Shown: positions 4,350 through 35,272 of the stretch, piece by piece
Position numbering within the stretch: the first letter of the stretch is position 1
Layout: every line of letters begins with the position of its first letter
From: Streptomyces sp. NBC_01445
Lineage (GTDB): Bacteria; Actinomycetota; Actinomycetes; Streptomycetales; Streptomycetaceae
Length of the DNA stretch: 64,000 nucleotides
NCBI RefSeq assembly: GCF_035918235.1
Contig: NZ_CP109485.1
Location: 7,293,001 to 7,357,000, forward strand
Direction of reading: 5' to 3'
Notes under the pieces: generated by a model
The model's input: only the letters and a program-made list of their open reading frames with translations
The model's database searches: none
What the model was told of the DNA's origin: nothing
Position numbers and translations under genes: made by a program

Positions 4350-4383
4350 CGCGCGGTTCGCGGGCGCCTGGCACGATGGCAGG

Positions 4384-5043: not shown

Positions 5044-5052
5044 GGGCGGCTC

Positions 5053-5127
5053 TCAGGCGGGCCTGCGCCCGTGATTGGCCTTGTGCTTCCTGACCCGCCA
5101 CTTCCGCTTGCGCGTCCTCTTCGACAT
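5053..5127 (-). CDS. Putative ribosomal protein bL37-like, 24 aa
   Basis: A 24-residue very basic protein starting MSKRTRKRKW and ending KANHGRRPA, from ATG 5127 with GAGGA 4 bases upstream. The size, charge and the ANHG-K/R-RP ending match the small large-subunit protein bL37 described from mycobacterial ribosomes; it would be an rRNA-binding tail-like protein. The start codon and ribosome binding site lie inside one arm of a perfect palindrome (5122-5156), so initiation may be controlled by RNA folding or by a DNA-binding protein. Confidence is limited by the short length; ribosomal assignment is from memory of the family. Confidence 0.65.
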   Translation of the reverse strand: MSKRTRKRKWRVRKHKANHGRRPA

Positions 5128-5156
5128 GTCCTCGGTATTTAGCCGAGGACATGTCG
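5122..5156 (-). promoter_or_regulatory. Perfect 14-bp palindrome overlapping the bL37-like start codon
   Basis: CGACATGTCCTCGG and its exact complement at 5122-5135 and 5143-5156, separated by 7 bases. Read on the minus strand, the distal arm carries GAGGAC-ATG, the ribosome binding site and start codon of the small gene, so the RNA hairpin would hide them. As DNA the same element could be an operator around a promoter, since the spacer is AT-rich. Confidence 0.6.
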
Positions 5157-5203
5157 TGCGTCGAGAGGTGGCGGGGATTCCGGGTTGCCGGGGGTCGGCG
5201 GCG

Positions 5204-5713
5204 TCAGGTGCGGCCGATGGGGGCCAGGACCGCGGACGTGAGCGTCGCCAGGTCCGTGGGGGCCAGCTCCACCTCCAGGCCGCGGCGGCCCGCCGAGACA
5301 CAGATCGTGACGTGCGCCCGCGCCGAGTCGTCCAGGACCGTACGCAGCTTCTTGCGCTGGCCCAGCGGGGAGATGCCGCCCCGCACATAGCCCGTGGTGC
5401 GCTCCGCCGCCGCCGGGTCGGCCATCGCGGCCCGCTTGCCGCCGACCGCAGTGGCCAGGGCCTTCAGGTCGAGCTGGCCCGCCACGGGCACGACGGCGAC
5501 GGTCAGCTCGCCGTCCACGTCGGCGACGAGCGTCTTGAACACCCGGTCGGGGGAGACGCCCATCGCCTCCGCCGCCTCGTCCCCGTACGAGGGATGGGCC
5601 GGGTCGTGCTCGTACGCGTGCGTCGTGAAGGGCGTGCCCGCGGCGGTGAGCGCCACGGTCGCGGGAGTTCCCCCGGACTGCTGCTTCTTGGACTTCTTCG
5701 CCAACGTCCTCAT
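5204..5713 (-). CDS. ybaK: Cys-tRNA(Pro)/aminoacyl-tRNA deacylase, YbaK/EbsC family
   Basis: 169 residues forming a single YbaK-type editing domain. The family hydrolyses mischarged Cys-tRNA(Pro) (and related errors) in trans in the cytoplasm. Visible family features are a basic N-terminus, a VFKTLVADVDGEL-like strand with the conserved lysine, the VAGQLDLKALA segment, and GGISPLGQRKKL with the conserved Gly-Ser/Thr-Pro loop. The length fits the family (150-170). The start is uncertain: ATG 5713 is used here, but a TTG four codons later is better spaced from the GAGGAC motif. It is followed on the same strand by the bL37-like gene. Confidence 0.85.
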   Translation of the reverse strand: MRTLAKKSKKQQSGGTPATVALTAAGTPFTTHAYEHDPAHPSYGDEAAEAMGVSPDRVFKTLVADVDGELTVAVVPVAGQLDLKALATAVGGKRAAMADPAAAERTTGYVRGGISPLGQRKKLRTVLDDSARAHVTICVSAGRRGLEVELAPTDLATLTSAVLAPIGRT

Positions 5714-5740
5714 GCCTTACGTCAGTCGGGACCGGCCACG

Positions 5741-6523
5741 TCAGTTGAGGCTGGTCGCCTGCCGGGTCAGGTCGCCGGCCGGCAAGGACGGCAGATTACG
5801 GATGATCGCCGTCTCGGCGCGAAGGAGTTTCAGCTCGTCGCGCAGGCGCGACGCCGTGTCCGGGGCCTGGAGGAGGCGCTGCTTCGTCGGTACGTCGAGG
5901 ACGGCCGCCGCGGCCACCAGGTACGACACGACGGACGGGTCGTCGGGCAGGTCGGCGCCCGTGGCCAGGGAGCGCTCACGGGCGCCCGCGAGCCGCTTCT
6001 GGTAGGAGCGGAAGGCGCGCAGCACGCCCTCGGCGAGGGCGCCCGCCTCGTCGCCCGGCTCCTCGGGCAGCTCCTCGACCTCGGCGGTCAGATAGGCGCC
6101 CGACGCGTCGACCGAGTGCACCTTCACGCGGGTCGTGCCGGTGGCGAGCACCTCGAAGCTGCCGTCGGCGCGCTCGCGGATCGTCGCGGCGTCGGCGATG
6201 CAGCCCACGCCGTGCAGGGCCTTGATCGGGTCGTCGCCGAAACCCGCGGCCGGGCCCGCCTCGGCGGCGGTCTTCGCCGCCTGGTCAGGCATGCCGGGGG
6301 CGCTGGGCGCGACCTCGTGGCCGTCGCGGATCGCCACGACGGCGAACCGCCGCGGCTCGTCGGAGTCGGTGGGGTCGCCGGAAGCCTCGGAACCCCCGGA
6401 GGAGGTCTTCAGCAGGTCGCGCATCATGGCGCGATAGCGCTCCTCGAACACGTTCAGCGGAAGCACGAGTCCCGGGAACAGCACCGAGTTGAGCGGAAAG
6501 AGCGGAAGCCGGACGGTGGTCAC
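5741..6523 (-). CDS. LON peptidase substrate-binding (LAN/PUA-like) domain protein
   Basis: 260 residues from GTG 6523. The N-terminus VRLPLFPLNSVLFPG followed by LPLNVFEERY is the hallmark of the Lon N-terminal domain, but no ATPase or protease domain follows, so this is a stand-alone substrate-binding type protein. An insert of about 40 residues rich in Gly, Ser and Asp (about 55-95) interrupts the domain. A TAGGCT hexamer 8 bases upstream of the GTG overlaps the end of the preceding gene and suggests leaderless expression. Its client proteins are unknown. Confidence 0.85.
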   Translation of the reverse strand: MTTVRLPLFPLNSVLFPGLVLPLNVFEERYRAMMRDLLKTSSGGSEASGDPTDSDEPRRFAVVAIRDGHEVAPSAPGMPDQAAKTAAEAGPAAGFGDDPIKALHGVGCIADAATIRERADGSFEVLATGTTRVKVHSVDASGAYLTAEVEELPEEPGDEAGALAEGVLRAFRSYQKRLAGARERSLATGADLPDDPSVVSYLVAAAAVLDVPTKQRLLQAPDTASRLRDELKLLRAETAIIRNLPSLPAGDLTRQATSLN

Positions 6524-6534
6524 GACGGTCAAGC

Positions 6535-7566
6535 CTAATGGGAGCCGGAGGTGAGAGGTCCGCGACCGGTGTCGCGACCCCCGAGCGTACGGGCCGCGGC
6601 GACCTCGATCCGTACCCCGTCGCGCAGTTCCAGGAACTGTCCGAGCGGGTCGTCCGAGATCCGGTCCCAGGGGAAGGACGTCGCGTACGGGCCGGTCAGG
6701 CGCAGCTGTTCCAGGGCGTCGGACCAGCGCTCCAGGCGGACCAGGACGTAGGTCAGGAGGTTGCGGACCTCGGCCGGCCAGGGGTCGTCGGCGCTGTACT
6801 CGCGGGACAGGGCGATCGCCAGGTCGGCGGCCTCGTCCAGGCGCTCGCGGGGCACCTTCGCGGCCGGTCCCGGGCCCACCTCGCTCGTCAGGTACGCGAA
6901 CGCGGCCCGCACCGGGAGCGCCTGCACCAGGGATCCCGGCAGGGCGTCCTGCGCCGCGCGCTCGGCGAAGTCGAAGCACTCGCGGTGCGAGCCGTACCAG
7001 GCGGCCGACAGGTACTGGAGCGCCGACACATGGCAGCCGTAGTGGTGTGGGGAGCGGCGCACGGCCTCGGCCCAGAGCTTCTCGAAGACGGTGTGCGAGG
7101 CGTTCGTGCCGCGCGCGTGGTCGAGGGCGACCCGCCATGGCACCGGGTCGCCGGGGTCGCCCTCGGCGGCGGCGGTGATCAGCGGCGTCACCTCGCGCAG
7201 CAGCTCGGCGCGGGCGGGCGACTCCCAGCCGCGCGCTACTTCCAGCTCGGCCTTGACGAGGAGGGCGTCCGGGTCGTGGGGCGCCGCGAACCGCCAGTCG
7301 TCGAACCATTCGCCGCGCGATCTGGCGAAGGCGGCGAGCCGGGTGACGTAGCGGTCCCTGTTCTCCCACTCGCCGGCCTCGCGGGTGGCGGCCAGCAGCT
7401 TGGCGGCCGCCTCGTACTCGCCCCGGCCCGCGGCGACGAGCGCCGGCGCGAGGCGTTCGTCGGGGACGTCGAGGAGGACGTCGTCGTCGGCGGGCAGGCC
7501 GGCCGCGAGACCCGAGGTGTGGCGGACCATCCGCGCGGTGCGGATGAGGGCGCGCAGCAGTGCCAA
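6535..7566 (-). CDS. Helical-repeat (TPR-like) hypothetical protein
   Basis: About 343 residues if translation starts at the TTG at 7566, which has GGGGAGCGGGG 8 bases upstream; the frame stays open to 7653 but that extension looks non-coding. The sequence is almost wholly alpha-helical, with paired helices such as LVAAGRGEYEAAAKLLAATR and a series around SALQYLSAAWYGSHRECFDFAERAA that resemble TPR units. No catalytic motif or signal peptide is visible, so it is probably a cytoplasmic scaffold-type protein. It ends 11 bases before the LON-domain gene, with which it may be functionally linked. I do not recognise a named family. Confidence 0.65.
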   Translation of the reverse strand: MALLRALIRTARMVRHTSGLAAGLPADDDVLLDVPDERLAPALVAAGRGEYEAAAKLLAATREAGEWENRDRYVTRLAAFARSRGEWFDDWRFAAPHDPDALLVKAELEVARGWESPARAELLREVTPLITAAAEGDPGDPVPWRVALDHARGTNASHTVFEKLWAEAVRRSPHHYGCHVSALQYLSAAWYGSHRECFDFAERAAQDALPGSLVQALPVRAAFAYLTSEVGPGPAAKVPRERLDEAADLAIALSREYSADDPWPAEVRNLLTYVLVRLERWSDALEQLRLTGPYATSFPWDRISDDPLGQFLELRDGVRIEVAAARTLGGRDTGRGPLTSGSH

Positions 7567-9247: not shown

Positions 9248-9403
9248 GACTCGTCTTCCTCCCCGTAGACCCCCGGATCCTCACGGAGCCCCGCACGTCC
9301 CGGTACGGCTCCGCTACTCGCGGGTTTAGTACAACTGTTCATGCCCGCTGAGTGACGGGCTGAACGCTACTGGTGAAGGTCATCCTCCGGTCTCGCGCAG
9401 TGA

Positions 9404-9426
9404 TCCGTATCAGCCATTGATACGGA
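9404..9426. promoter_or_regulatory. 9+9 bp palindrome upstream of hisD, candidate operator
   Basis: TCCGTATCA at 9404-9412 and its exact complement TGATACGGA at 9418-9426 around a 5-base spacer. The centre lies about 50 bases before the hisD start and about 26 bases before the -10 hexamer, a position suited to a transcription factor of the histidine operon or of the divergent membrane-protein gene. Confidence 0.55.
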
Positions 9427-9451
9427 CGTCGGGCGCTGATGTGACGTCTGC

Positions 9452-9457
9452 GAGAAT
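9452..9457 (+). promoter_or_regulatory. Putative -10 hexamer of the his operon
   Basis: GAGAAT ends 7 bases before the hisD GTG and no ribosome binding site precedes that GTG, so the operon transcript is probably leaderless. Confidence 0.45.
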
Positions 9458-9464
9458 TGAGCAC

Positions 9465-10787
9465 GTGATCTCCCGAATCGATCTGCGCGGCGACGCCCTC
9501 CCCGAGGGCCCCGCACTGCGCGACCTGCTGCCCCGAGCCGACTTCGACGTTCAGGCCGCCCTCGAGAAGGTGCGTCCGATCTGCGAGGCCGTGCATCATC
9601 GTGGCGACGCGGCGCTGATCGACTACGCGGAGCAGTTCGACGGCGTGAAGCTGGAGTCCGTACGGGTTCCCGCCAAGGCCCTCCAGGACGCCCTGGAGCA
9701 GCTCGACCCCGCCGTGCGCGCGGCTCTGGAGGAGTCGATCCGCCGGGCCCGCATCGTCCACCGCGAGCAGCGCCGCACCACCCACACCACGCAGGTCGTC
9801 CCCGGCGGCTCGGTCACCGAGAAGTGGGTGCCCGTCGAGCGCGTCGGCCTGTACGCGCCGGGCGGCCGCTCCGTCTACCCGTCCTCCGTGATCATGAACG
9901 TGGTGCCCGCGCAGGAGGCCGGGGTCGAGTCGATCGCCCTCGCGTCCCCCGCCCAGGCCGAGTTCGGCGGACTGCCGCACCCGACGATCCTGGCCGCGTG
10001 TGCGCTGCTCGGCGTCGACGAGGTCTACGCGGCGGGCGGCGCCACGGCCGTCGCGATGTTCGCGTACGGCACCGAGTCCTGCCCGCCGGCGAACATGGTC
10101 ACCGGACCCGGCAACATCTGGGTCGCCGCGGCCAAGCGCTACTTCACGGGTCTCATCGGCATCGACGCCGAGGCGGGCCCGACCGAGATCGCGGTCCTCG
10201 CGGACTCCACCGCCGACCCGGCGCACGTCGCGTCCGACCTGATCAGCCAGGCCGAGCACGACCCGCTCGCCGCCGCCGTCCTCGTCACCGACTCGGCCGA
10301 GCTCGCGGACGCCGTCGAGAAGGAGCTGGAGCCGCAGGTCGCGGCCACCAAGCACATCGACGACCGGATCCTCCCGGCCCTGCGCGGCAGGCAGTCCGCG
10401 ATCGTCCTGGTCGACGGGGTCGACGAGGGCCTGCGCGTCGTCGACGCATATGGCGCCGAGCACCTGGAGATCCAGACCGCCGACGCCGCCGCGGTCGCCC
10501 AGCGCGTGAAGAACGCCGGCGCGATCTTCGTCGGCCCCTGGGCACCGGTGTCCCTCGGCGACTACGCCGCGGGCTCCAACCACGTGCTGCCCACGGGCGG
10601 CTGCGCCTGCCACTCGTCCGGTCTGTCCGTCCAGTCCTTCCTGCGCGGCATCCACATCGTGGACTACACGCGCGACGCACTCGCCGACGTCGCCCACCAC
10701 GTGGTCACGCTCGCCGAGGCGGAGGACCTGCCCGCGCACGGCGCGGCGATCAAGGCAAGGTTCGAATGGAAGGTTCCCGGCCAGTGA
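9465..10787 (+). CDS. hisD: Histidinol dehydrogenase
   Basis: 440 residues from GTG 9465; upstream codons are in frame but lack support. HisD is the zinc enzyme that oxidises L-histidinol to histidine in two NAD-dependent steps, the last reactions of the pathway. The nucleotide-binding stretch around [16 protein letters not shown], the [14 protein letters not shown] segment and the [10 protein letters not shown] motif are all present, as are the zinc-ligand region around [10 protein letters not shown] and the C-terminal GxNHVLPT motif. Length is typical. It heads an eight-gene operon and its stop overlaps the hisC start by GTGA. Confidence 0.97.
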
Positions 10788-11899
10788 CCGGCATCGACGA
10801 TCTGCCCGTACGGGACGAGCTGCGCGGCAAGTCCCCGTACGGCGCCCCCCAGCTCGACGTACCCGTACGCCTGAACACGAACGAGAACCCCTACCCGCTG
10901 CCCGAGGCGCTCGTCGAGCGGATCGCGGAGCGGGTCCGCGAGAGCGCCCGCGACCTCAACCGCTACCCCGACCGGGACGCGGTCCAGCTGCGCACCGAGC
11001 TCGCCGGCTATCTCACGCGCACCGGCGGCCACCACGTCGGCATCGAGAACGTCTGGGCCGCCAACGGCTCGAACGAGGTCATCCAGCAGCTCCTGCAGAC
11101 CTTCGGCGGCCCCGGCCGCAGCGCCATCGGCTTCGAGCCCTCGTACTCGATGCACGGCCTCATCGCGCGCGGCACCGGCACCGGCTGGATCTCCGGACCG
11201 CGCAGCGCGGACTTCACCATCGACGTGGAAGCGTCCGTGCGGGCCATCGCGGAGAACCGCCCGGACGTCGTCTTCATCACGACGCCCAACAACCCCACCG
11301 GCAGCGCGGTCCCGCCCGAGACGGTCCTCGCCCTGTACGAGGCCGCACAGGCGGCCAAGCCGTCCATGGTCGTCGTCGACGAGGCCTACATCGAGTTCAG
11401 CCACGGGAATTCTCTTCTCCCGCTGCTCGAAGGCCGGCCGAATCTCGTCATCTCGCGCACCATGTCGAAGGCGTTCGGCGCGGCGGGCCTGCGCCTCGGC
11501 TACATGGCCGCCGCCCCCGCTGTGGTCGACGCCGTCCAGCTGGTGCGCCTGCCGTACCACCTGTCGGCCGTCACCCAGGCCACGGCGCTCGCCGCCCTCG
11601 AGCACACCGACACGCTCCTCAAGTACGTCGAGCAGCTCAAGGACGAGCGCGACCGCCTGGTGACCGAGCTGCGGGCGACGGGCTACGAAGTGACCGACTC
11701 GGACGCCAACTTCGTGCAGTTCGGCCGGTTCGAAGGCGAAGGTGCCGCGCACGCGGTGTGGCAGCAGATCCTCGACCGGGGCGTCCTGGTCCGGGACAAC
11801 GGCGTACCCGGGTGGCTGCGTGTCTCCACGGGCACCCCGGACGAGAACGACGCGTTCCTCGATGCGGTACGCGCAATCAAGAAGGAGCGGAACGCATGA
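10784..11899 (+). CDS. hisC: Histidinol-phosphate aminotransferase
   Basis: 371 residues from GTG 10784, sharing GTGA with the hisD stop. A fold-type I PLP enzyme that converts imidazole-acetol phosphate and glutamate to histidinol phosphate. The N-terminal [11 protein letters not shown] motif, the VVDEAYIEF segment with the PLP-ring aspartate and the Schiff-base lysine in [17 protein letters not shown] are visible. Length and position between hisD and hisB are standard for actinobacteria. Its stop overlaps the hisB start by ATGA, so translation is probably coupled. Confidence 0.97.
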
Positions 11900-12489
11900 G
11901 TCGCGTAGGCAGGGTGGAGCGGACCACCAAGGAGACCGCGGTCCTCGTCGAGATCGACCTCGACGGCACCGGCAAGGTCGAAGTCTCCACGGGCGTGGGC
12001 TTCTACGACCACATGCTCGACCAGCTCGGCCGCCACGGCCTCTTCGACCTCACGGTCAAGACCGAGGGCGACCTGCACATCGACACGCACCACACCATCG
12101 AGGACACCGCCCTCGCGCTCGGCGCCGCCTTCAAGCAGGCGCTCGGCGACAAGGTCGGCATCTACCGCTTCGGCAACTGCACCGTCCCGCTGGACGAGTC
12201 GCTCGCCCAGGTCACGGTCGACCTCTCCGGCCGCCCCTACCTGGTGCACACCGAGCCCGAGAACATGGCCCCCATGATCGGCTCGTACGACACGACGATG
12301 ACCCGGCACATCCTGGAGTCGTTCGTCGCGCAGGCCCAGATCGCGCTGCACGTCCACGTCCCGTACGGGCGCAACGCGCACCACATCGTGGAGTGCCAGT
12401 TCAAGGCGCTGGCCCGCGCGCTGCGTTACGCGTCCGAGCGCGACCCGCGCGCCGCGGGCATCCTTCCGTCCACGAAGGGCGCCCTCTAA
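11896..12489 (+). CDS. hisB: Imidazoleglycerol-phosphate dehydratase
   Basis: 197 residues; monofunctional dehydratase as in actinobacteria, without the phosphatase domain seen in enteric bacteria. It converts imidazole glycerol phosphate to imidazole acetol phosphate using a dimanganese site built by His/Glu motifs: [13 protein letters not shown] and [10 protein letters not shown] in the first half and [13 protein letters not shown] in the second. All are intact. Starts at ATG 11896 within the hisC stop (ATGA) and ends three bases before a 54-residue membrane-protein gene. Confidence 0.97.
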
Positions 12490-26963: not shown

Positions 26964-27800
26964 TCAGCCCCCGCGGCGGCGCGACGCCAGCGCAAGGACC
27001 CGGCGCGCGTCCGAGACGATCGCCGCGTCGACGAAGCGGCCGTCGGGCAGGGCCAGGGCCCCCGCCTCCGTGGAGGCGGCGCCGACGACCTCCGCCGCCG
27101 CGTCGACCTCCGCCGCCGTCGGCAGGAACGTCGCCTCGATGACGGGAAGCTGGCGGGGGTGGATCGCCATGCGGCCGAAGAAGCCGAGCGCACGGCCCTG
27201 TGAGCACGAGCGGGCCAGGCCCACCGTGTCGCGGATGTCCGGATAGACGGACTGCGGCGGCGGGGGCAGCGCAGCGGCGCGCGCGGCAACCACCGCCCGC
27301 CCCCGTGGCCACGCCAGACCCTCGCCGTTCGCCAGGCCGAGCTCCGCCCGCAGATCCGACTCGCCCAGCGCGATGCCGCGTACGCCGGGATGCCGGGCGA
27401 TCTCGTACGCGTGCTCGACGCCGAGCGCCGACTCCAGGAGGGCGTACAGGGGCGGCACCTCGACCGACCAGTCCGATACGCGGTCCAGGTCGGCGGGGCC
27501 GTGGACCTTGGGGAGGCGCAGGGCGCCGAGGCCGGGGAGCGGGGTGAGACGTCTGACCTCGGACTCGGCGCGCGGCGAGTTCAGCGCGTTGACCCTCACG
27601 TGCACCGGCACCGGGTGCTTCTCGGCGAGGAGCTCGGCGGTCGCGTCGAGGGCGTACGCCTTGCGGTCGGGGGCGACCGCGTCCTCCAGGTCGATCAGGA
27701 CCACGTCGGCGCCCGAGTCGAGCGCCTTCGCCACGACCTCCGGCCGGTCTCCCGGGGCGTAGAGCCAGGTCAGGAAGGTCTCGTAGGACTGGGCGGTCAC
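26964..27800 (-). CDS. HpcH/HpaI-family (CitE-like) lyase
   Basis: 278 residues from GTG 27800, overlapping the CoA-transferase stop by GTGA. A TIM-barrel lyase of the citrate lyase beta/malyl-CoA lyase type: the phosphate/CoA region SGADVVLIDLEDAVAPDRK, the arginine in VPVHVRVNAL, the metal glutamate in ALLESALGV and the GESDLRAELG aspartate motif are intact, so a divalent-metal C-C lyase acting on a CoA thioester is likely. Last gene of the seven-gene LacI operon; the CoA-transferase upstream would activate its substrate. The exact acid is unknown. Confidence 0.85.
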   Translation of the reverse strand: MTAQSYETFLTWLYAPGDRPEVVAKALDSGADVVLIDLEDAVAPDRKAYALDATAELLAEKHPVPVHVRVNALNSPRAESEVRRLTPLPGLGALRLPKVHGPADLDRVSDWSVEVPPLYALLESALGVEHAYEIARHPGVRGIALGESDLRAELGLANGEGLAWPRGRAVVAARAAALPPPPQSVYPDIRDTVGLARSCSQGRALGFFGRMAIHPRQLPVIEATFLPTAAEVDAAAEVVGAASTEAGALALPDGRFVDAAIVSDARRVLALASRRRGG

Positions 27801-29005
27801 AGCGCGCCCGCTTCGCGGAGGGTGGTGATCTCCGAGGGGGTCAGACCGAGGCCCGTGAGGATCTCGTCCGTGTCGGCGCCGTGGGGGCGGCCGGCCCACC
27901 TGATCGCGCCGGGGGTCTCGGAGAGGCGGAACAGTACGTTCTGCATCTTGACGGTGCCCAGCTCGGGGTCGGGCACCTCGGTGATCGAGTCGAGCGCCCG
28001 GTACTGCTCGTCCTCCATCACGTCGCGGATGTCGAAGACGGGGGCGATGGCGGCCTCCGCCTTCTCGAAGGCGGCGAGGACGTCGTCCCGCGAGTGCCGG
28101 GCGATCCATGAACCGACCGCCGCGTCGAGTTCGTCGGCGTGCCCCGCGCGGCCCGAACCCGTCGCGAACCACGCCTTGTCGATCAGCTCGGGGCGGCCGA
28201 CCAGGCGCATCACGCGCTCGGCGATCGACTGGGCGGACGTGGAGACGGCCACCCACTTGTCGTCGCTCGTGCGGTACGTGTTGCGCGGGGCGTTGTTCGT
28301 GGAGCGGTTCCCCGTGCGCGGCTGTACGTAGCCGAGCTGGTCGTACCAGATGGGCTGCGGGCCGATGACCGTCAGCATCGGCTCGATGATTGCCATGTCG
28401 ACGACCTGGCCCCGGCCGGTCCGCTCGCGGCCCTGGAGCGCGGCCATCACCGCGTACGACGTGGAGAGCGCGGCGATCGAGTCCGCGAGGCCGAACGGGG
28501 GAAGCGTCGGGGGGCCGTCGGGCTCGCCCGTGAGCGCCGCGAAGCCACTCATCGCCTCGGCGAGCGTGCCGAAGCCGGGGCGGCGCGAGTACGGTCCGAA
28601 CTGGCCGAAGCCGGTGACGCGGGTGAGCACCAGGCGCGGGTTGGCGGCGCTCAGCTCCTCCCAGCCGAGGTTCCACTTCTCCAGGGTGCCGGGGCGGAAG
28701 TTCTCGATCAGGACGTCGGCGTCCGCGACCAGCTTGAGGAGGATCTCGCGCCCGCCCCGCGTGGAGAGGTCGAGCGTGATGTTCCGCTTGTTGCGGCCGA
28801 GGAGCTTCCACCACAGGCCGACGCCGTCCTTCGACGGACCGTGGCCACGGGACGGGTCCGGTTTACGGGGGTGCTCGACCTTGATCACGTCGGCGCCGAA
28901 GTCGCCCAGCATGGTGGCGGCGAGGGGGCCGGCGAAGAGGGTGGCGAGGTCGAGTACGCGTAGGCCTTGCAGGGGGGCGGGGGTGTTGGACGCAGGGGAT
29001 TTCAT
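27797..29005 (-). CDS. CaiB/BaiF family CoA-transferase
   Basis: 402 residues from ATG 29005, overlapping the upstream gene by ATGA and the CitE-like gene by GTGA. A class III CoA-transferase: LRVLDLATLFAGPLAATMLGDFG start, the IKVEHP strand, LLGRNKRNITLDL and the catalytic aspartate in PFGLADSIAAL are present. It should move CoA between two carboxylic acids. Being sandwiched between a glycohydrolase-type gene and a lyase suggests the three act in one catabolic route, which is inference from context. Confidence 0.9.
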   Translation of the reverse strand: MKSPASNTPAPLQGLRVLDLATLFAGPLAATMLGDFGADVIKVEHPRKPDPSRGHGPSKDGVGLWWKLLGRNKRNITLDLSTRGGREILLKLVADADVLIENFRPGTLEKWNLGWEELSAANPRLVLTRVTGFGQFGPYSRRPGFGTLAEAMSGFAALTGEPDGPPTLPPFGLADSIAALSTSYAVMAALQGRERTGRGQVVDMAIIEPMLTVIGPQPIWYDQLGYVQPRTGNRSTNNAPRNTYRTSDDKWVAVSTSAQSIAERVMRLVGRPELIDKAWFATGSGRAGHADELDAAVGSWIARHSRDDVLAAFEKAEAAIAPVFDIRDVMEDEQYRALDSITEVPDPELGTVKMQNVLFRLSETPGAIRWAGRPHGADTDEILTGLGLTPSEITTLREAGAL

Positions 29006-30420
29006 GTGCGGGCCTCCAGAGTGAGCCTGGCCAGTTCGTCGAAGCCGATCCCGTCGAAGTCGGCGACCGAGGTCGACAGACGGTTCTTGAGCGGGGCGGT
29101 CCAGCGGTCGTCGATCGCGTCGGCGGAGCCGGCGAGGAGTCCGGCGATCGAACCGGCCGTCGCGCCGTTGGAGTCGGTGTCCCAACCACCCGACACCGCA
29201 CGGCAGATGGACCCCGTGAAGTCGCCGTCGGCGTGGGTGAGCGCGGCGGCGAGCAGCGCCGCGTTGGGCAGGACGTGCACCCAGTGGTGGTCGTGGGCGT
29301 AACGGGCGTGGAGCGTGTCGACGACTGATGCGAAGCCCGCCGGGGTGCCGGTGGGTTCGGCGCGGGCCGTCTCGATGCCGAAGCGGATCGCTTGGGCGTA
29401 GCGGGAGTCGGGCGGGATCACGGAGAGGGCTGCGTCGAGGGTGGCTTGGACGGTGGGGGCCGTGCCTGAAGGTGCTGACGCGTGGGCGATGGCCGCCGCT
29501 ACGAACATCTCGCCGTAGACGCCGTTCGCCGTGTGCGTCAACGTCGCGTCCCTGTGCGCCAGTTCGGCTGCTCCGGCGGGGTCGCCCGGGTTCGTCCAGC
29601 CGAAGATGTCCGCGCGGATCTGGGCGCCGATCCACTCCCGGAACGGGTTGTGATGCACGGCCGTGTCCGGGGGCTCGATGCCGTCCAGGAGATTGCGGTA
29701 CGCGACGCGCTCCGCGGTGAACGTGCGGCCCGCCGGCAACTCGTCGAGCCAGAGCTGCGCCACGTCCGCGGTGGTGAAGTCGGCGCCGTGGCGCTGGAGC
29801 AGGAGCAGACCGAGGAGCGGGTAGTTGAGGTCGTCGTCCTCGGGCATGCCGTCGATGTTCTCGGCGAGGGAGGTGGGGCGGGAGCGGCGGTTCCAGGGGT
29901 AGCGCTCCGCCACGTCCTGCGGGAGGTTCCGGTGCGTGAACCAGGTGTTCAGGGGCCAGTTGGACGTGGATTTCGCGATGGCCCGGATGCCGCGCAGGGG
30001 GAGTTTCTCGACGGGTTTGCCGAGGAGGCAGCCGACGGCTCTGCCCAGCCAGGATGCGTGCAGGCCTTTCGCTTCGGAGGTCTCTGGGGGTGCTGCTCCC
30101 AGACTCCCGCGTTCCTTGTCCTCAAGCGTCGGACGGGCTGGGCGGGGGGTCAGCTGTCTGATTTCCGGCAAGGATGTCGGCTCAAGTGCCCTCAACGGGC
30201 TCTGTGTCGAAGCCAGTTCGTCCAGGAGCTGCTGTGCCAGGGATCGTAGCTTCGGGTCCTGGGGCGGTGGTGACGCTCCCGCGCGCTCGGGGGGCGGGTG
30301 GCCTCCTGCCTCGCGCCAGCGGCGCTCCACCCCGCTTGCGTTCCGGCCCTCCTGTGCCGCCTGGCGCAGCTCGTGGCCGAGCAGGTCCTCGGGCTGGACC
30401 CAGGTGAGGCGCAGCATCAC
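29002..30420 (-). CDS. ADP-ribosylglycohydrolase family protein (ARH copy 4, N-terminal extension)
   Basis: 472 residues from GTG 30420, with an N-terminal extension of about 120 residues rich in Pro, Glu and Arg before the conserved domain starts at WLGRAVGCLLGKPVEKLPL. The acidic metal motif that is TDDT in classical members reads PEDDDLNY here, and the C-terminal motif SGGWDTDSNGATAG is complete, so a dinuclear magnesium site is plausible. The family removes ADP-ribose from proteins or cleaves related N- or O-glycosides. Part of a run of four homologues; it overlaps both neighbours. Target unknown. Confidence 0.85.
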   Translation of the reverse strand: MMLRLTWVQPEDLLGHELRQAAQEGRNASGVERRWREAGGHPPPERAGASPPPQDPKLRSLAQQLLDELASTQSPLRALEPTSLPEIRQLTPRPARPTLEDKERGSLGAAPPETSEAKGLHASWLGRAVGCLLGKPVEKLPLRGIRAIAKSTSNWPLNTWFTHRNLPQDVAERYPWNRRSRPTSLAENIDGMPEDDDLNYPLLGLLLLQRHGADFTTADVAQLWLDELPAGRTFTAERVAYRNLLDGIEPPDTAVHHNPFREWIGAQIRADIFGWTNPGDPAGAAELAHRDATLTHTANGVYGEMFVAAAIAHASAPSGTAPTVQATLDAALSVIPPDSRYAQAIRFGIETARAEPTGTPAGFASVVDTLHARYAHDHHWVHVLPNAALLAAALTHADGDFTGSICRAVSGGWDTDSNGATAGSIAGLLAGSADAIDDRWTAPLKNRLSTSVADFDGIGFDELARLTLEART

Positions 30421-31613
30421 GACACCGCGGTGGCGGTGAGTTCTGCGAACGCCGCCTCGTGGGACCGGCGGCGGGTCATGTCCTTGGCGAAGACCTCACG
30501 CGTGACCCGGGCCAGTGAGGCCGCCGGCGTGTACAGGTCGAGCCTGCTCGCGCGGGCCACCTCCCCGCTCCACTCCCGCGGCACCGCCGGCTCCCCGTAC
30601 AGCGCGCCCACGATCGCTCCGCTCATCGTCGCGATCGAGTCGCAGTCCCGGCCGTAGTTGACCGCACCGAGGACCGTCTGGCGGAAGTCGCCCCGGCCGA
30701 CCAGGAGCATCCCGAGCGCGATCGGCAGCTCCTCGATCGCGTGGAGGCGGGACGGGCGGCGCGCCCCGAGCGACGGCTTGCGGTACTCCGGGCCCACCGT
30801 GTCGAAGGGTGTGATCGCCTCGCGCAGCGGTCCCAGCGCGTCCTCGAAGTCCGTGTAGCCGCACGCCACTTCGCATACCGCTTCGATCGCCGACCTCGTG
30901 CCGTCCTTCGCGAGGGCCAGGGCGTCCTCCACCACCGACTCCGGTGTCGCGCCCGGCCTGAACGCCGCGGCCACCGCTGCCGCGAAGACGCCCGCCGCCT
31001 CCCTGCCGTACGACGACTGGTGCGCGCCCGCCACGTCCAGCGCCTCCTCGTACGCCCTGGCCGGGTTGCCCGCGTTCACCGCTCCGACCGGAGCCATGTA
31101 CATCGCCGCGCCGCAGTTCACGATGTTGCCCACGCCCGCCTCGCGCGGGTCCACATGGCCGTAGTGGATGCGCGCCACGATCCACTTCTCCGCCAGGAAG
31201 ATCCGTTGCAGCGGGAGCGCCTCCGCCTCCAGCTCCGGGATCCAGCGCGTGTTGGTGATCAGGTCGGGGACGAGGTGGTCCGCGACCGCGTACGCGTCCA
31301 GGTGGTCCCGTACGTTCTCGTAGACCCTGATCAGCGCGTGCGTCATCAAGGTGTCGTCCGTGACGTGACCGTCGCCCTTGTGGTACGGGGCGATCGGGCG
31401 CGCCGTGCGCCAGTCGTCCTTGTGGAACGGCTCCACGATGCCGCGGACCCGGCCGCCGTGGCGCTCCGCGATCGCCTCCGGCGTCCAGCCCTCCACGGGG
31501 CCGCCCAGCGCGTCGCCCACCGCCGCGCCCACGAGGGCCCCTGTGGTGCGGTCCTCCAGGGAGAAGGGGGTTGAGATTGAGTTTTGAGTGCGGGCTGTTG
31601 TGGGGGTTGTCAT
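30417..31613 (-). CDS. ADP-ribosylglycohydrolase family protein (ARH copy 3)
   Basis: 398 residues from ATG 31613. All family motifs are there: VGAAVGDALGGPVEGW near the start, HVTDDTLMTHAL with the TDDT metal ligands, and VNYGRDCDSIATMSGA with the Asp-x-Asp near the end. It is the most canonical member of the four tandem homologues. It shares ATGA with the gene before it and GTGA with the gene after it, so the three are translated as a coupled unit. Confidence 0.9.
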   Translation of the reverse strand: MTTPTTARTQNSISTPFSLEDRTTGALVGAAVGDALGGPVEGWTPEAIAERHGGRVRGIVEPFHKDDWRTARPIAPYHKGDGHVTDDTLMTHALIRVYENVRDHLDAYAVADHLVPDLITNTRWIPELEAEALPLQRIFLAEKWIVARIHYGHVDPREAGVGNIVNCGAAMYMAPVGAVNAGNPARAYEEALDVAGAHQSSYGREAAGVFAAAVAAAFRPGATPESVVEDALALAKDGTRSAIEAVCEVACGYTDFEDALGPLREAITPFDTVGPEYRKPSLGARRPSRLHAIEELPIALGMLLVGRGDFRQTVLGAVNYGRDCDSIATMSGAIVGALYGEPAVPREWSGEVARASRLDLYTPAASLARVTREVFAKDMTRRRSHEAAFAELTATAVS

Positions 31614-32809
31614 CGGGCGCCTTTCGGTGTGGTTGCCCTGGTCAGGTCTGCTGCGATGGCTACGAGGTCCGTTCCCGCCAGGCGCGGCAGCGCGCAGCCC
31701 GCGAGCCTGCGGCAGGCGTTCCGCCAGCTCGCCGGGAGCGTGTCGGCTCCGCCGATCGCGCCCGTCAGTGCGCCCGCCAGCGCCGGGGCCGAGTCCGCCA
31801 CCCGCGAGAGGCACGCCGCCGTGGGCACCGCCTCCGTCACGTCGCCGCCGGCCGCGGTCGCCACGGCCAGGGCCACCGGGACCGTCTCCGCTGCCGCGAT
31901 GCCGTAGCTGTAGACGTGGTCGACGATCTCGTGCTCCAGGACCGGGACCAGCGCGAACGCGTTTCCCGGCAGGCCCGGGCGGGCCGCGGCCGCCCTTCGT
32001 GCCAGGTCCACCGCGTGCAGCGCGTTGCGGCGGATCTCGGTTCCCTCGGGCAGCTGGGCCAGCGCTGCGTCCACGCAGGCGTCGACCGGGGCGCCGCCCA
32101 GCGCTGCCGCTACGGCTGCCGCCATCGCTCTCGCGCCGTGGACTCCGTCGCCGTCCTGGGTGTAGCGGGCGTCGAACTCCGCCAGTTCCGCGGCCGGTTC
32201 GGGGTCGCCCGGGTGGACCACGGCCAGTACCGCGGCGCGTACACAGGCCGCGTCGTCGAAGTAGTGCGGGTTGTCGTGTCCCGTGGCCGGAGGGCTCAGA
32301 CCCGCCGCCAGGTTGCCCAGGCCCGCTCGTACGGAGATGCGTGCCCGCATTGGCATGCGCGCCGACTCGATCTCGTCCGCTCGGGCCGTTGCTTCGGCCA
32401 CCTCGGCGGCGAGGGTGTTCCAGGCGAGGGCCAGTGCCGTGCGTACGTGTTCGTCCGGGGGGACGTTCGTGCTGTGGGCTCCCGCCTTGGTGGCGTTCAG
32501 GATCGACGCCGCTGTGAACGCCGCCCATTCGGCGTCGTCCGACGGGCCCAGGCGCAGGGGTTCCGGGGGTTGGTTCAGCGCGATCGGTACGGGGAGTGTC
32601 GTCGTCGCGTTCTGTTCCGCGAACGTGTCCAGTTCTCGGGTCAGGCGGCGGGTCCAGTCGGGGAGGCGGGCCGCGCGGTGTCTGCCTGAGGGCCAGCCTG
32701 CGGCGTCGCCTGCGGCGATGCCCAGTAGCAGTCCCTCGATCCGGTGGGGGGTGGTGGGGGTTCCGGTGGTGCGGGGGGTTGTCCGGGTGGTGACGGTTGG
32801 TGGCGTCAT
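31610..32809 (-). CDS. ADP-ribosylglycohydrolase family protein (ARH copy 2, degenerate metal site)
   Basis: 399 residues from ATG 32809, with AGAGAGGCC upstream; the longer frame to 32968 has no ribosome binding site and crosses the inverted repeat. The fold is recognisable (LLLGIAAGDAAGWPSGRHR, GDGVHGARAMAAAVAAAL, LAGALTGAIGG), but the metal motifs are altered: the TDDT position reads PSDDAEW, and the usual G-x-D-x-D pattern reads SRVADSAP, with one aspartate lost. It may be a pseudo-enzyme, or act on a different substrate in a complex with its neighbours. It is in frame and intact otherwise. Confidence 0.8.
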   Translation of the reverse strand: MTPPTVTTRTTPRTTGTPTTPHRIEGLLLGIAAGDAAGWPSGRHRAARLPDWTRRLTRELDTFAEQNATTTLPVPIALNQPPEPLRLGPSDDAEWAAFTAASILNATKAGAHSTNVPPDEHVRTALALAWNTLAAEVAEATARADEIESARMPMRARISVRAGLGNLAAGLSPPATGHDNPHYFDDAACVRAAVLAVVHPGDPEPAAELAEFDARYTQDGDGVHGARAMAAAVAAALGGAPVDACVDAALAQLPEGTEIRRNALHAVDLARRAAAARPGLPGNAFALVPVLEHEIVDHVYSYGIAAAETVPVALAVATAAGGDVTEAVPTAACLSRVADSAPALAGALTGAIGGADTLPASWRNACRRLAGCALPRLAGTDLVAIAADLTRATTPKGAR

Positions 32810-32878
32810 GGTGTGCTGGCCTCTCTGGGGGCGGGTGCCGGCTTGTTCCGGGCTCCTGCTCGCGCCGGTGGTGGGTGC

Positions 32879-32982
32879 GGGGCCGGGCCGGTATGTCTGT
32901 CCTCGCTTGGATGGTTCGGCGTCGGATTTCGTCGGCGTCAGTTGTGTGTGCCGGCTCCGGGCGGACATACCGGCCCGGCCCC
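32879..32982. repeat. 19-bp perfect inverted repeat with 66-base loop in the ARH operon
   Basis: GGGGCCGGGCCGGTATGTC at 32879-32897 is repeated inverted at 32964-32982. It lies in the 246-base gap between ARH copies 1 and 2, the only large gap in this operon. The transcript could fold into a long stem, giving processing or partial termination between the two genes. Confidence 0.6.
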
Positions 32983-33055
32983 TTTCGCTCGGGCGCCAGT
33001 GCGGCTGCTCGGGGGCCGGGGTCCCCCTGTGCTTGTACGTGGATGGGTGCGGGGG

Positions 33056-34165
33056 TCACGGTGTGGTCCCCTTCGGGGGTTTGGGCGGGAGGGGTGGCGT
33101 GGGGGTCAAGGTGTCGGCGATGTCCAGGATGTGACGTCCCTTCATCGACGGGAGGCAGTTGCCTCGGACCGGGCCGATGGTCGTCGCCCAGTCGGCGGGG
33201 ATCGCTCGTTCGCCGCGCAGTGCGCCGGCCAGGGCGCCCGCCACCGCGGCCGTCGTGTCCGCGTCGCGGCCCATGTTCACCGCCATCAGGACCGACTCCC
33301 TGAACTCGCCCCGGGCCGCCGCGAACGCTCCGAAGGCCAGGCCCACCGCCTCCGGGGCCAGGTCCGGCCAGGGGTAGCCGCCGATCACCACGGCCCGGCG
33401 TACCTCTCGTTCCATGGAGAGTTGCGTCCCCTCGGCGTCGCGGCGGGCGCAGCGGGCCGCAGCCACCGCGCGGTGCAGGGAGCGTGCTGTCCAGGAGTCC
33501 TCGGGGACCACGGACAGGGCCGCCTGGACGACTGCGTCCGGGTTGTGGCTCACCATCGCCGCCGCGACCCCGGCCGCCACCGCCCGGCCTCCGTGGATGC
33601 CCTCCCCGTCGTGCGACACCGTGCCGTCCACCGCTACGAGGCGTGCCGCCTCCGCCGGGCGGCCCGCCGCGTACACCCCGAACGGGGCCGCCCGCATGGC
33701 CAGTCCGTCGCTCCACGCGTGGCGGTGCTGCGCCGAGATGGGTGCCGCCAGGCCCCGGCGCAGGTTCTCCAGAGTTCCTCTCTCGCTGAAGCCCGCACCT
33801 CGGAACGGGCCCTCGTCGCGGTCGGCGATCCATGTGTGCCAGGCCGCCTCGACATGTCCCACGGTGAGCGCCGAACCGTGCTCCGCCAGTAGGAGGCCGG
33901 AGAAGATCGCGTACTCGGTGTCGTCCGTGCCCGCCGGGTCCGGCGAGACGAACCCCTCGATACGGCCCCATCGCTCGCGGATCTGGGACGGCTTCATGTT
34001 CTCTGCGGGCGCGCCGAGCGCGTCGCCCACCGCGAGGCCGAGCAGCGCTCCGCGGGCCCGGTCCCGCAGGGAGATCGTGGCCGGCGGCTGGCGGTGCGGG
34101 ACCGTGCCGAGCCTTCGCGGACCGTCCGCGCCCGCCGGCGGGTCGGGGTCGAGGCTGACGCTCAT
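33056..34165 (-). CDS. ADP-ribosylglycohydrolase family protein (ARH copy 1)
   Basis: 369 residues from ATG 34165. Motifs are complete: ALLGLAVGDALGAPAENMKP at the N-terminus, AGTDDTEYAIFSG with the metal ligands, GEGIHGGRAVAAGVAAAM in the middle and VNMGRDADTTAAVAGALAGA at the end. It is the first of the four homologues, 34 bases downstream of the LacI-type regulator and linked to it by a 13-codon mini-ORF that overlaps both. The C-terminus is a Pro/Thr-rich tail (LTPTPPLPPKPPKGTTP). A hydrolase of an N-ribosyl-type bond is likely; the physiological substrate is not known. Confidence 0.9.
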   Translation of the reverse strand: MSVSLDPDPPAGADGPRRLGTVPHRQPPATISLRDRARGALLGLAVGDALGAPAENMKPSQIRERWGRIEGFVSPDPAGTDDTEYAIFSGLLLAEHGSALTVGHVEAAWHTWIADRDEGPFRGAGFSERGTLENLRRGLAAPISAQHRHAWSDGLAMRAAPFGVYAAGRPAEAARLVAVDGTVSHDGEGIHGGRAVAAGVAAAMVSHNPDAVVQAALSVVPEDSWTARSLHRAVAAARCARRDAEGTQLSMEREVRRAVVIGGYPWPDLAPEAVGLAFGAFAAARGEFRESVLMAVNMGRDADTTAAVAGALAGALRGERAIPADWATTIGPVRGNCLPSMKGRHILDIADTLTPTPPLPPKPPKGTTP

Positions 34166-34203
34166 GGCGTGTTCGGGCTCTGCGAGGTGCGGTTGGCGCT
34201 CAT
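34162..34203 (-). CDS. 13-codon mini-ORF bridging lacI-type gene and ARH copy 1
   Basis: ATG at 34203 overlaps the regulator's TGA (ATGA), and its own TGA at 34164-34162 overlaps the ATG of ARH copy 1 (ATGA). The peptide MSANRTSQSPNTP is too short to be a functional domain; the arrangement instead looks like a relay that lets ribosomes reinitiate across the gap. Whether it is translated is unknown. Confidence 0.4.
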   Translation of the reverse strand: MSANRTSQSPNTP

Positions 34204-35237
34204 GTGGACCTCGTGTTCTCGGTCGGTGCTGTGGATGCGCGGACCACCAGGCGGGGTGGGGCCGTGGCCGTGGTGCCGCGAGGCGTCGGGGCCGTGCCGT
34301 CCAGGCGTTCCACCAGGAGTTCGGCCGCTCGCCGCCCGCGTTCTGTCGAGCCCAGGTCGACGCTGGTCAGCGGGGGCCAGACCGACTGGGCGAGCACGCT
34401 GTCGTCCATCCCCGCGACCGCTACGTCCTGCGGTATGCGCAGGCCCCGCGAGTGCAGCGCGCGGGCCGCGCCGAGCGCCAGCTGGTCGTTGGCGCAGAAG
34501 ACGGCGTCGGGGCGCCGGGCGAGCAGTTCCGCGGCAGCCAGGGCCCCCGCCTCGATGCCGAACCCGGTCTCGACGACCAGCGTGTCGTCGTATACGAGTC
34601 CGCACTCGGCGAGAGCCGCGCGGTAGCCCTCCTCGCGGTTGCGGCCGGGGACCGTGTCGGAGGGGCCGTTGATGAACGCGATGCGTCGGCAGCCGGTGTC
34701 GTGCAGATGGCGTACGGCCAGGGCCGCGCCCGTCACCGAGTCGGCGCGGACGCTGTCCACGGGCACCCCGGACGGCAGGGAACCCATGACCACGACGGGG
34801 CCCGCCGCGCAGGTCAGCGCCTCGATGTGGTCGTCGGTGATGCGGATGGGGCAGATGATCAGGCCGTCGCTGGTGCGGTCGCCGAGGCTGCGCAGGACGG
34901 CCAGTTCGTCGTCGACGACCGCGTCCGTGGAGTGCAGGAGCAGGCGGTAGCCGTGGTTCTTGGTGACGCCCTGGACGGCGCGGACCATCGCCACGTAGGC
35001 CGGATTGCCGATGTCCGGCAGCGCGAACGTGAGCTGCCGGGTCCGGCCGTCCTTGAGGGAGCGGGCCACGGCGTTGGGTACGTAGCCGAGCTCCGACGCG
35101 GCGCGCTCCACCCGTTCGACGGTCTCCCGCCGCGCGCCCAGACCGTTGAGGACGCGGGAGACCGAGGCGATGGAGACCCCGGCCCGCCGCGCGATCGACA
35201 CGATCGTCGGCTGGCCGCCGCCCGGCACCGGAGACAT
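34200..35237 (-). CDS. LacI-family transcriptional regulator
   Basis: 345 residues from ATG 35237 with GGTGAGGAG upstream. The N-terminal helix-turn-helix reads TIVSIARRAGVSIASVSRVLNG, with the hinge-helix region YVPNAVARSLKDGRT next, and a periplasmic-binding-protein-like sensor domain follows (FALPDIGNPAYVAMV, AFINGPSDTVPGR, DAVFCANDQLALGA, VAGMDDSVLA). Sugars or nucleosides are the usual ligands. A LacI-box lies 22 bases upstream, so it probably represses itself and the six downstream genes. That makes the operon an inducible catabolic unit, by inference. Confidence 0.92.
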   Translation of the reverse strand: MSPVPGGGQPTIVSIARRAGVSIASVSRVLNGLGARRETVERVERAASELGYVPNAVARSLKDGRTRQLTFALPDIGNPAYVAMVRAVQGVTKNHGYRLLLHSTDAVVDDELAVLRSLGDRTSDGLIICPIRITDDHIEALTCAAGPVVVMGSLPSGVPVDSVRADSVTGAALAVRHLHDTGCRRIAFINGPSDTVPGRNREEGYRAALAECGLVYDDTLVVETGFGIEAGALAAAELLARRPDAVFCANDQLALGAARALHSRGLRIPQDVAVAGMDDSVLAQSVWPPLTSVDLGSTERGRRAAELLVERLDGTAPTPRGTTATAPPRLVVRASTAPTENTRST

Positions 35238-35258
35238 GGGTTCGCTCCTCACCGCATG

Positions 35259-35272
35259 TGGAAACGTTTACA
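35259..35272. promoter_or_regulatory. LacI-type operator
   Basis: TGGAAACGTTTACA, a near-palindrome centred on the CG pair as in known LacI/GalR boxes, 22 bases upstream of the regulator start. A weaker half-site-like GATGTTTCC lies about 10 bases further upstream. Confidence 0.7.

Follow-up and report, generated by a model that had tools for sequence, protein, structure and literature searches.

A putatively LacI-controlled operon with four ADP-ribosylglycohydrolase homologues in Streptomyces sp. NBC_01445, a possible reduced form of a system for ribose-containing glycosides

Why should a Streptomyces genome hold four ADP-ribosylglycohydrolase homologues side by side, preceded by a LacI-family regulator and followed by a CoA-transferase and a CitE-like lyase? 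The question is raised by a stretch of 64,000 nucleotides, here called the window (C1:7293001-7357000 of the 11.47 Mb genome of Streptomyces sp. NBC_01445), in which seven genes of the minus strand occupy positions 26964-35252. A preliminary description of this DNA had named these seven genes, and open reading frames (ORFs) together with Pfam matches confirmed the presence of each one. Gene content, gene order, the operator, orthology, the loss of catalytic residues in one homologue and the replacement of a loop residue in all four can be read from the sequence; on these grounds we hold, with confidence a little above even, that the locus is the reduced form of an operon under LacI control, one for the catabolism of a ribose-containing glycoside and not for ADP-ribose reversal.

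The four homologues are numbered ARH1 to ARH4 by order of transcription. All match PF03747 (E values of 2e-57, 9e-38, 6e-54 and 1e-48; 131-195 bits against a cut-off of 26.2), placing them in this superfamily and in the DraG/ARH fold, and each of the seven products scores above the Pfam cut-off for its family. Eleven PF03747 matches occur in the whole genome, four of them within this 5 kb. The regulator gene (34200-35252, minus strand) encodes 350 residues from a GTG start and matches Pfam LacI (2e-12) and Peripla_BP_3; the alternative in-frame start at 35237, chosen in the preliminary description, would give 345 residues. ARH1 (33056-34165, minus) carries canonical catalytic motifs, as judged by Pfam, motif alignment and clade, while ARH2 (31610-32809, minus; 452 residues if an in-frame ATG further upstream at 32968 is used) has the PF03747 fold without two of the catalytic acids and is probably a non-catalytic partner of ARH1. 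ARH3 (30417-31613, minus), an operon name that does not denote human ARH3, has the canonical catalytic acids with Ser for Thr in motif 3, and ARH4 (29002-30420, minus) is longer by about 110 residues at its N-terminus and has variant motifs, with GC for GD, DDD for TDD and Ser for Thr. These are followed by a class III CoA-transferase (27797-29005, minus; a full-profile match to CoA_transf_3 at 6e-124 and 414 bits) and by the CitE-like (HpcH/HpaI) lyase (26964-27800, minus; Pfam HpcH_HpaI at 6e-29).

The ATGA and GTGA overlaps claimed earlier hold for the genes from ARH2 through the lyase, with four shared bases at ARH2/ARH3 (ATGA), ARH3/ARH4 (GTGA), ARH4/CoA-transferase (ATGA) and CoA-transferase/lyase (GTGA). 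ARH1 stands outside this chain and is joined differently, lying 34 bp from the regulator gene and 87 or 246 bp from ARH2, depending on the ARH2 start. In eight of 11 Streptomyces loci, the called ARH1 and ARH2 genes overlap (L065-L068, L071, L072, L075 and L076; not L064, L073 and L074).

The preliminary description proposed a search for the same gene order in other genomes, and the order is conserved: by gene calls, 28 of the 34 fetched loci holding at least two ARH groups hold all four. In its fullest form it runs from the LacI regulator through an ATP-binding cassette (ABC) importer, ARH1-ARH2-ARH3-ARH4, a ribokinase of the PfkB family and, in some cases, a protein with an FGE domain, to the CoA-transferase and lyase. 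In the genomes labelled f19 and f21, the importer consists of two permeases and a binding protein (SBP) in the order LacI-Perm1-Perm2-SBP-ARH1-ARH2-ARH3-ARH4-PfkB-(FGE-domain protein)-CoA-transferase-lyase (L062, L095, L111, L112, L125, L126 and L128), with an opposite-strand gene separating the last two in L111. L093 and L094 are truncated on the LacI side, and L124 ends at a contig end. In L099 (G508, f19), neither kinase nor CoA-transferase follows ARH4, and the CoA-transferase-lyase pair lies on a different contig (L098); in L100 the blocks are shuffled to CoA-transferase-lyase-LacI-ABC-ARH3-ARH4-ARH1-ARH2. Among the 28 four-ARH loci, a complete ABC set is found in 15, LacI in 13, a separate PfkB gene in 21, an ARH4-PfkB fusion in one of the other seven (L067), and the CoA-transferase with the lyase in 27, the last count being inflated because the sample was partly chosen by CoA-transferase matches. 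The core of the fullest relatives is an importer, the ARH set and a ribokinase, which goes beyond what the preliminary description had seen in the window.

A wider scan, in which an ARH4 profile was run against named genomes and the best 80 of 574 relatives were kept, added Actinopolymorpha, Enemella, Okibacterium, Cryobacterium, Microbacterium and Nonomuraea. Among these best 80 of 574 loci, 54 carry a single ARH group (at least 80 bits), so ARH4-type genes occur outside this operon too. Parts of the gene set are present in Actinomycetota and in five other phyla, the latter mostly as metagenome-assembled genomes (MAGs), in which mis-binning is possible, and the phylum labels of L171, L173, L176, L177, L179, L182, L183, L185 and L191 are only as good as the bins. 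The Trueperaceae locus L191 combines LacI, ABC, ARH1-ARH4, the CoA-transferase, a lyase homologue at 30% identity and the FGE-domain protein, and a second Trueperaceae locus, L171, is a contig fragment. A Bacillota MAG (L176) has LacI, ABC, ARH1, ARH2, ARH4 and a fifth group, ARH5, together with AtuA and DUF4387 genes (L176:11067-12787) that occupy the place of the CoA-transferase and lyase and might form an alternative acid branch. The MAGs of KSB1 and Ignavibacteriota (L179, L182 and L185) hold ABC, ARH1, ARH2, ARH4 and ARH5. In Paraglaciecola arctica (L184), the locus comprises a TonB receptor, the FGE-domain protein, CoA-transferase (30% identity), ARH4, lyase (27%), an SSF symporter, LysR, PfkB and ARH3, with ARH1 and ARH2 absent from it. 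A kinase was not found in L176, L179, L182, L185 or L191.

Within Streptomyces, the ARH2 query, which matched 83 of 150 genomes at E 0.001, was strong (E of at most 1e-100) in 65 of the 91 genomes of the genus, the window genome included, weaker only in 13 and without a match in 13. Two forms of the operon occupy one site, between gltB with a VIT-family gene and lgt. The first is ARH1-ARH2-ARH3-ARH4-(PfkB)-CoA-transferase-lyase, without regulator or importer (for example L071-L076), and the second, in G059 (L064), is LacI-Perm1-Perm2-SBP-ARH1-ARH2-ARH3-ARH4-CoA-transferase-lyase. The window and Streptomyces sp. CB02923 (L196) are intermediates, with LacI present and both importer and kinase absent, while L065, L066 and L067 have the importer-bearing form in another neighbourhood. 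By its gene content, the window copy is a reduced form of a fuller operon. A broken-up operon is seen in G012, where ARH1 is alone among ARH genes at the gltB site (L070) and ARH2 lies elsewhere (L069/L139).

The regulator gene has its own operator, as the preliminary description claimed. The LacI-type operator TGTAAACGTTTCCA lies on the minus strand at 35259-35272 (read on the plus strand as TGGAAACGTTTACA), six bases ahead of the GTG start codon at 35252, and this 14-mer occurs only once in the 11.47 Mb genome when one mismatch is allowed. The identical TGTAAACGTTTCCA precedes lacI in L064, NGTAAACGTTTACN precedes it in L066, L099, L124 and L125, with a one-base variant in L067, and GGAAACGTTTCC precedes it in the f21 loci (L062, L111, L112, L126 and L128) and in L100. 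Such a palindrome, that of L064 included, was present before 12 of 18 other lacI genes examined, a different palindrome before three (L063, L129 and the second lacI of L127), and none of this kind before the remaining three (L065, L095 and one lacI of L127). Against curated regulators, the LacI protein scores best with RbsR (201 bits, under the cut-off of 382). In L063, L127 and L129, smaller sister operons place an ARH1-ARH2 pair divergently to LacI and to a different sugar ABC set, with the palindrome GCAAGACGTTTTGC; that of L127 additionally holds ARH4 and PfkB.

The importer and kinase of the relatives are informative about the substrate. The permeases match BPD_transp_1 and the binding protein SBP_bac_1, with weak matches to curated carbohydrate models, and a MalK-like ATPase gene after the Ignavibacteriota operon L182 supports a carbohydrate importer. 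The nearest importer set of the window genome is detached from the operon, at C1:3186338, and its binding protein is 62% identical to that of L064 (next best 32%). This set (L138, G000:C1:3177000-3196900, at 9336-12402) is without LacI or ARH genes and has a GH95-type gene nearby. Over the 198 bases that precede its first permease gene no LacI-like palindrome was seen, thus co-regulation of the detached importer with the operon is unsupported. The one kinase that was scored (L072:5513-6406) passes the TIGR02152 ribokinase cut-off (316.8 against 299.65), the closest PDB matches of the operon kinase are ribokinases, and in L067 a single ORF of 803 residues (4340-6751, minus strand) fuses ARH4 to a PfkB/ribokinase domain. 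The nearest kinase of the window genome is 46% identical to that of L072. Importer, LacI and ribokinase in the relatives together favour an inducible pathway for a glycoside over the reversal of a toxin; in this respect the earlier proposal is strengthened, as it is by the loop changes and the published assays described below, with the N-ribosyl bond that it put forward as one candidate.

On an opposing view, the four proteins act as ADP-ribosylhydrolases and remove ADP-ribose from protein, nucleic acid or small molecules, the metabolic genes being bystanders. We take the motifs of these proteins to correspond to human ARH3 numbering. The catalytic residues of human ARH3 are E41, D77, D78, D314 and T317, according to PMC5727137. 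In the alignment, the catalytic acids are retained in all rows of ARH1 (27/27), ARH3 (25/25) and ARH4 (25/25), and every row of ARH3 and ARH4 has Ser in place of the motif Thr. In ARH2, on the other hand, the motif-1 Glu is lost in 25 of 27 rows and the first Asp of motif 3 is retained in none of the 27. The loop that contacts ADP contains GNG in DraG and S148, Y149 and G150 in human ARH3, and its Asn, presumably a defining residue of ADP-ribosylhydrolases, is replaced in every row of the four groups, by Asp in ARH1 (27/27) and ARH2 (27/27), by Cys in ARH3 (25/25) and by Ile in ARH4 (25/25). In addition, none of the four proteins reaches the NCBIfam cut-offs for DraG and Tri1, and with the Tri1 immunity model the window proteins score at most 57 bits against a cut-off of 490. 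PADLOC assigned the seven window proteins to none of its families, and a toxin-antitoxin, immunity or defence role was rejected on these two results. No ADP-ribosyltransferase was noticed among the neighbouring ORFs, which were inspected by eye without a dedicated search.

SCO2028-SCO2031 of Streptomyces coelicolor are presumably ARH1-ARH4, judging from four consecutive locus tags and the trp-lgt neighbourhood. PMC9411070 gives these four as uncharacterised DraG/ARH homologues, which, with the PF03747 match of all four window proteins, favours the hydrolase explanation. However, PMC13036486 reports two of them, SCO2028 and SCO2030, as inactive on U-alpha-ADPr. Together with the replaced loop Asn, the empty PADLOC result, an importer and LacI inside the operons of Actinomycetota and of the Trueperaceae and Bacillota MAGs, and a ribokinase in the operons of Actinomycetota and Paraglaciecola, this makes reversal of ADP-ribosylation very improbable.

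The relationships among the ARH groups bear on how old the quartet is. In a tree of 88 sequences built by a quick method (39 of 85 inner branches with support of at least 95), each group forms its own clade, namely ARH1 (19 rows, SH-aLRT 94), ARH2 (19 rows, 100), ARH3 (13 rows, 100), ARH4 (26 rows, 100) and ARH5 (6 rows, 100); as each row took its label from its best BLAST hit, a degree of clustering is to be expected, and several long branches leave the deepest joins unsure. The five other PF03747 proteins of the window genome included in the tree lie on a separate side of it (support 89). Several phyla occur within each of the ARH1, ARH2, ARH4 and ARH5 clades, and the ARH3 clade holds Actinomycetota with one long Paraglaciecola branch. 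The quartet therefore predates this strain and did not arise by recent tandem duplication. Chance proximity of the ARH genes was discarded, given that 28 of 34 loci hold all four groups and that each group has its own clade (support 94 for ARH1).

Co-occurrence was counted over 152 loci, some of which were fetched twice (for example L064/L210, L069/L139, L058/L151 and L059/L152). In 51 of the 53 loci with an ARH2 gene (100 bits), an ARH1 gene (60 bits) lies no more than 2.5 kb away, the two exceptions belonging to G012, and ARH1 has ARH2 nearby in 53 of 57, missing in L070, L198, L173 and L177 (in the last two, the match is ARH5). Since ARH2 has lost catalytic acids yet adjoins ARH1 in 51 of 53 loci, it is probably a non-catalytic partner of ARH1. 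ARH3 has ARH4 nearby in 50 of 53 loci, and ARH4 has PfkB nearby in 35 of 117. The interval between ARH1 and ARH2, or the 5' end of the longer ARH2, contains an inverted repeat (32879-32982) with 24-nucleotide arms that are 92% complementary and 56 nucleotides apart, and a 15-base piece of an arm recurs exactly once elsewhere in the genome, at C1:4055572. The operon as a whole is flanked, by our reading of the ORFs, by what are presumably lgt, a DsbA-like gene and trp genes on one side and by a VIT-family gene and gltB on the other.

For the last two genes, the preliminary description had proposed that a released acid is metabolised as a CoA thioester. The pair does recur, even in Paraglaciecola at 30% and 27% identity, and is absent from the Nonomuraea operons L189, L219 and L226. 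As it is missing there, and missing or replaced in other phyla, the pair is a recurrent, optional module. Glu208 of the CoA-transferase aligns with an Asp of YfdW and others that we take to be catalytic in YfdW/formyl-CoA transferase; Glu stands at this position in 49 of 57 aligned rows, the window included, and likewise in chain 10uh, named a formyl-CoA transferase. The nearest curated family of the lyase is RipC of the itaconate pathway (NF038242), at 135 bits against a cut-off of 375, and its closest PDB entries are 9nzb and 8khl. Reading the substrate from the lyase family was given up, RipC being the nearest family and still far under its cut-off. With no hydratase in the operon, the acid should already carry a beta-hydroxyl, and malate, citramalate and hydroxymethylglutarate are candidates. 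The genes that surround related CoA-transferases (cyclase, MmgE/PrpD, allantoinase-like and DctM) suggest hydroxy or unsaturated di-acids, though not decisively. In L102, L104 and L120, relatives of the CoA-transferase lie beside a cyclase (PF04199) and MmgE/PrpD in a second, ARH-free setting, and L102 and L104 further hold IclR and a CitE-like gene.

These neighbours also bear on the idea that the substrate is a nucleoside-type N-riboside, with the CoA-transferase and lyase serving a different compound that shares only the inducer. The pair is lacking in Nonomuraea operons and in other phyla, and its relatives elsewhere accompany IclR, cyclase and MmgE/PrpD with no ARH gene in the fetched stretch. 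However, four-base overlaps tie the pair to the operon in the window, a distantly similar pair joins ARH3, ARH4 and the kinase in Paraglaciecola, and the operon showed no recognisable gene for base catabolism, so that we regard this reading as unlikely.

A number of observations count against a catabolic operon for a ribose-containing glycoside, the first being the uneven presence of its parts. The importer is found at the locus in four of 18 Streptomyces genomes (window and G012 excluded) and absent in 14, so the enzymes are often retained without dedicated uptake; the kinase is likewise missing from the window, L064, L066 and L068. The acid branch is lacking in the three otherwise complete Nonomuraea operons and in L099, and neither CoA-transferase nor lyase was found in the KSB1 and Ignavibacteriota loci L179, L182 and L185. 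Among the ARH groups, ARH4 relatives are often without ARH3 (together in 48 of 117 loci), G012 has ARH2 apart from ARH1, and ARH2 retains three motif acids, plus the Glu in L063 and L129. The loop residue is an indirect argument for substrates without ADP, and the published assays cover two S. coelicolor proteins and one substrate, according to PMC13036486. By analogy, an ADP-containing substrate is hinted at by YegW/GgaR, the repressor of yegTUV in Escherichia coli, which is reported in PMC10819704 to sense internal ADP-glucose.

The last point, together with the 14 of 18 genomes lacking the importer and the strong ARH2 in 65 of 91 genomes of the genus, would fit an operon that clears or recycles damaged or unusual ribosylated or nucleotide-sugar metabolites formed inside the cell, with no imported nutrient. 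The complete forms, with an ABC importer or with a TonB receptor and a symporter, and the LacI operator retained in the window copy argue in the other direction, and we consider an internal substrate improbable. The identity of the sugar raises a related doubt. PfkB kinases differ in substrate, and the L072 kinase falls short of a second ribokinase model (NF008353, 269.9 against a cut-off of 341). The sugar could accordingly be another furanose or pentose, such as arabinofuranose, apiose or a ketose, with a re-specified PfkB enzyme as the kinase, an idea to which the operons without a kinase also lend themselves. Against it stand the TIGR02152 score, the ribokinases as nearest PDB entries and the known chemistry of the ARH fold, which acts on ribose, and we give a sugar other than ribose little probability.

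If the operon does serve a ribose-containing glycoside, a course of events can be proposed, in which every reaction, ribose as the sugar, ARH2 as a partner and the connection of ribosyl cleavage with the acid branch are our suggestions. Without substrate, LacI would sit on the TGTAAACGTTTCCA operator, to be released by a breakdown product. The glycoside would be taken up by the ABC importer, encoded within the operon in relatives and by the detached homologous set in the window genome. ARH1, with ARH2 as its non-catalytic subunit, ARH3 and ARH4 would then cleave ribosyl bonds by the two-metal chemistry of DraG/ARH enzymes, on substrates without ADP, and a ribokinase, here perhaps another kinase of the genome, would yield ribose 5-phosphate. 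A hydroxy acid from the same or a co-occurring compound may be converted to a CoA thioester by the CoA-transferase, which the CitE-like lyase may split into an acyl-CoA and an oxo acid.

Further partner genes may refine this scheme. A PF00756 esterase adjoins the operon in six of the 152 loci, in three phyla, as found with four esterase queries, which came from four of these loci (L062:15939-18014, L128:17938-19899, L184:378-2171, L185:9609-10592, L200:15546-17918 and L203:12133-12990). All six loci hold at least two ARH groups, and the recurrence of this family, a common one, may hint that the substrate contains an ester. The FGE-domain protein (L062:3880-5859, with relatives in L112, L128, L184, L191, L200 and L203) is likewise recurrent in the operon. 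In L062 and L184, Pfam finds a C-terminal FGE-sulfatase-like domain, and neither Pfam nor the PDB gave a significant match for the N-terminal part of the L062 protein, which by eye looks like the barrel of a glycoside hydrolase. Tentatively, and with more doubt than belief, we extend the scheme to a carbohydrate system over six phyla (five of them known mostly from MAGs) in which DraG/ARH-fold proteins would be catabolic ribosidases, with ARH1 and ARH2 as an obligate pair, the one catalytic and the other degenerate. Where PF00756 and the CoA-transferase and lyase occur, its natural substrate would be an ester between a hydroxy acid and a ribose-containing glycoside, broken down to ribose 5-phosphate and a CoA-bound acid.

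PF03747 carries the Pfam name ADP-ribosylglycohydrolase, and the many Streptomyces hydrolases have been interpreted as a sign of lively ADP-ribosylation metabolism (PMC5087735). If four of them serve sugar catabolism, this reading of the Streptomyces hydrolase number loses ground, ARH2 becomes a conserved pseudo-hydrolase that acts as a subunit, and there is a nutrient of several bacterial phyla to be identified. The complete operons provide a direct handle, as their binding proteins can be screened for a ligand. The open-access PMC text searched held no description of the operon; SCO2028 appears in PMC5036795 as a primer or insert label in a passage on trpM.

The nearest precedent in print, a small one, is yegTUV of E. 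coli, described in PMC10819704 as encoding a putative nucleoside symporter, an ADP-ribosylglycohydrolase and a sugar kinase, with function unknown. Compared by description, both systems combine a transporter, an ARH homologue and a kinase in one repressor-controlled operon, whereas yegTUV has one ARH instead of four, a major facilitator superfamily symporter and a GntR-type regulator, and is without CoA-transferase or lyase. Unlike the ADP-ribosylhydrolases DraG, ARH1 and ARH3, the window operon comprises four groups in which the loop Asn is replaced, with ARH2 lacking catalytic acids. With the LacI-controlled carbohydrate ABC operons of actinobacteria, it shares the regulator and operator type and, in relatives, the binding protein, two permeases, intracellular hydrolases and kinase, but here PF03747 proteins take the place of glycoside hydrolases, and a branch for acid activation is added. 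Itaconate degradation (CoA-transferase, hydratase and the citramalyl-CoA lyase RipC/Ccl) likewise uses a class III CoA-transferase and the lyase family nearest to that of the window, yet the window lyase is far under the RipC cut-off and the operon has no hydratase. Ribose utilisation (RbsR and RbsK) has in common the ribokinase of the relatives and the regulator against which LacI scores best, and differs in that the operon places hydrolases upstream of the sugar and its LacI stays below the RbsR cut-off.

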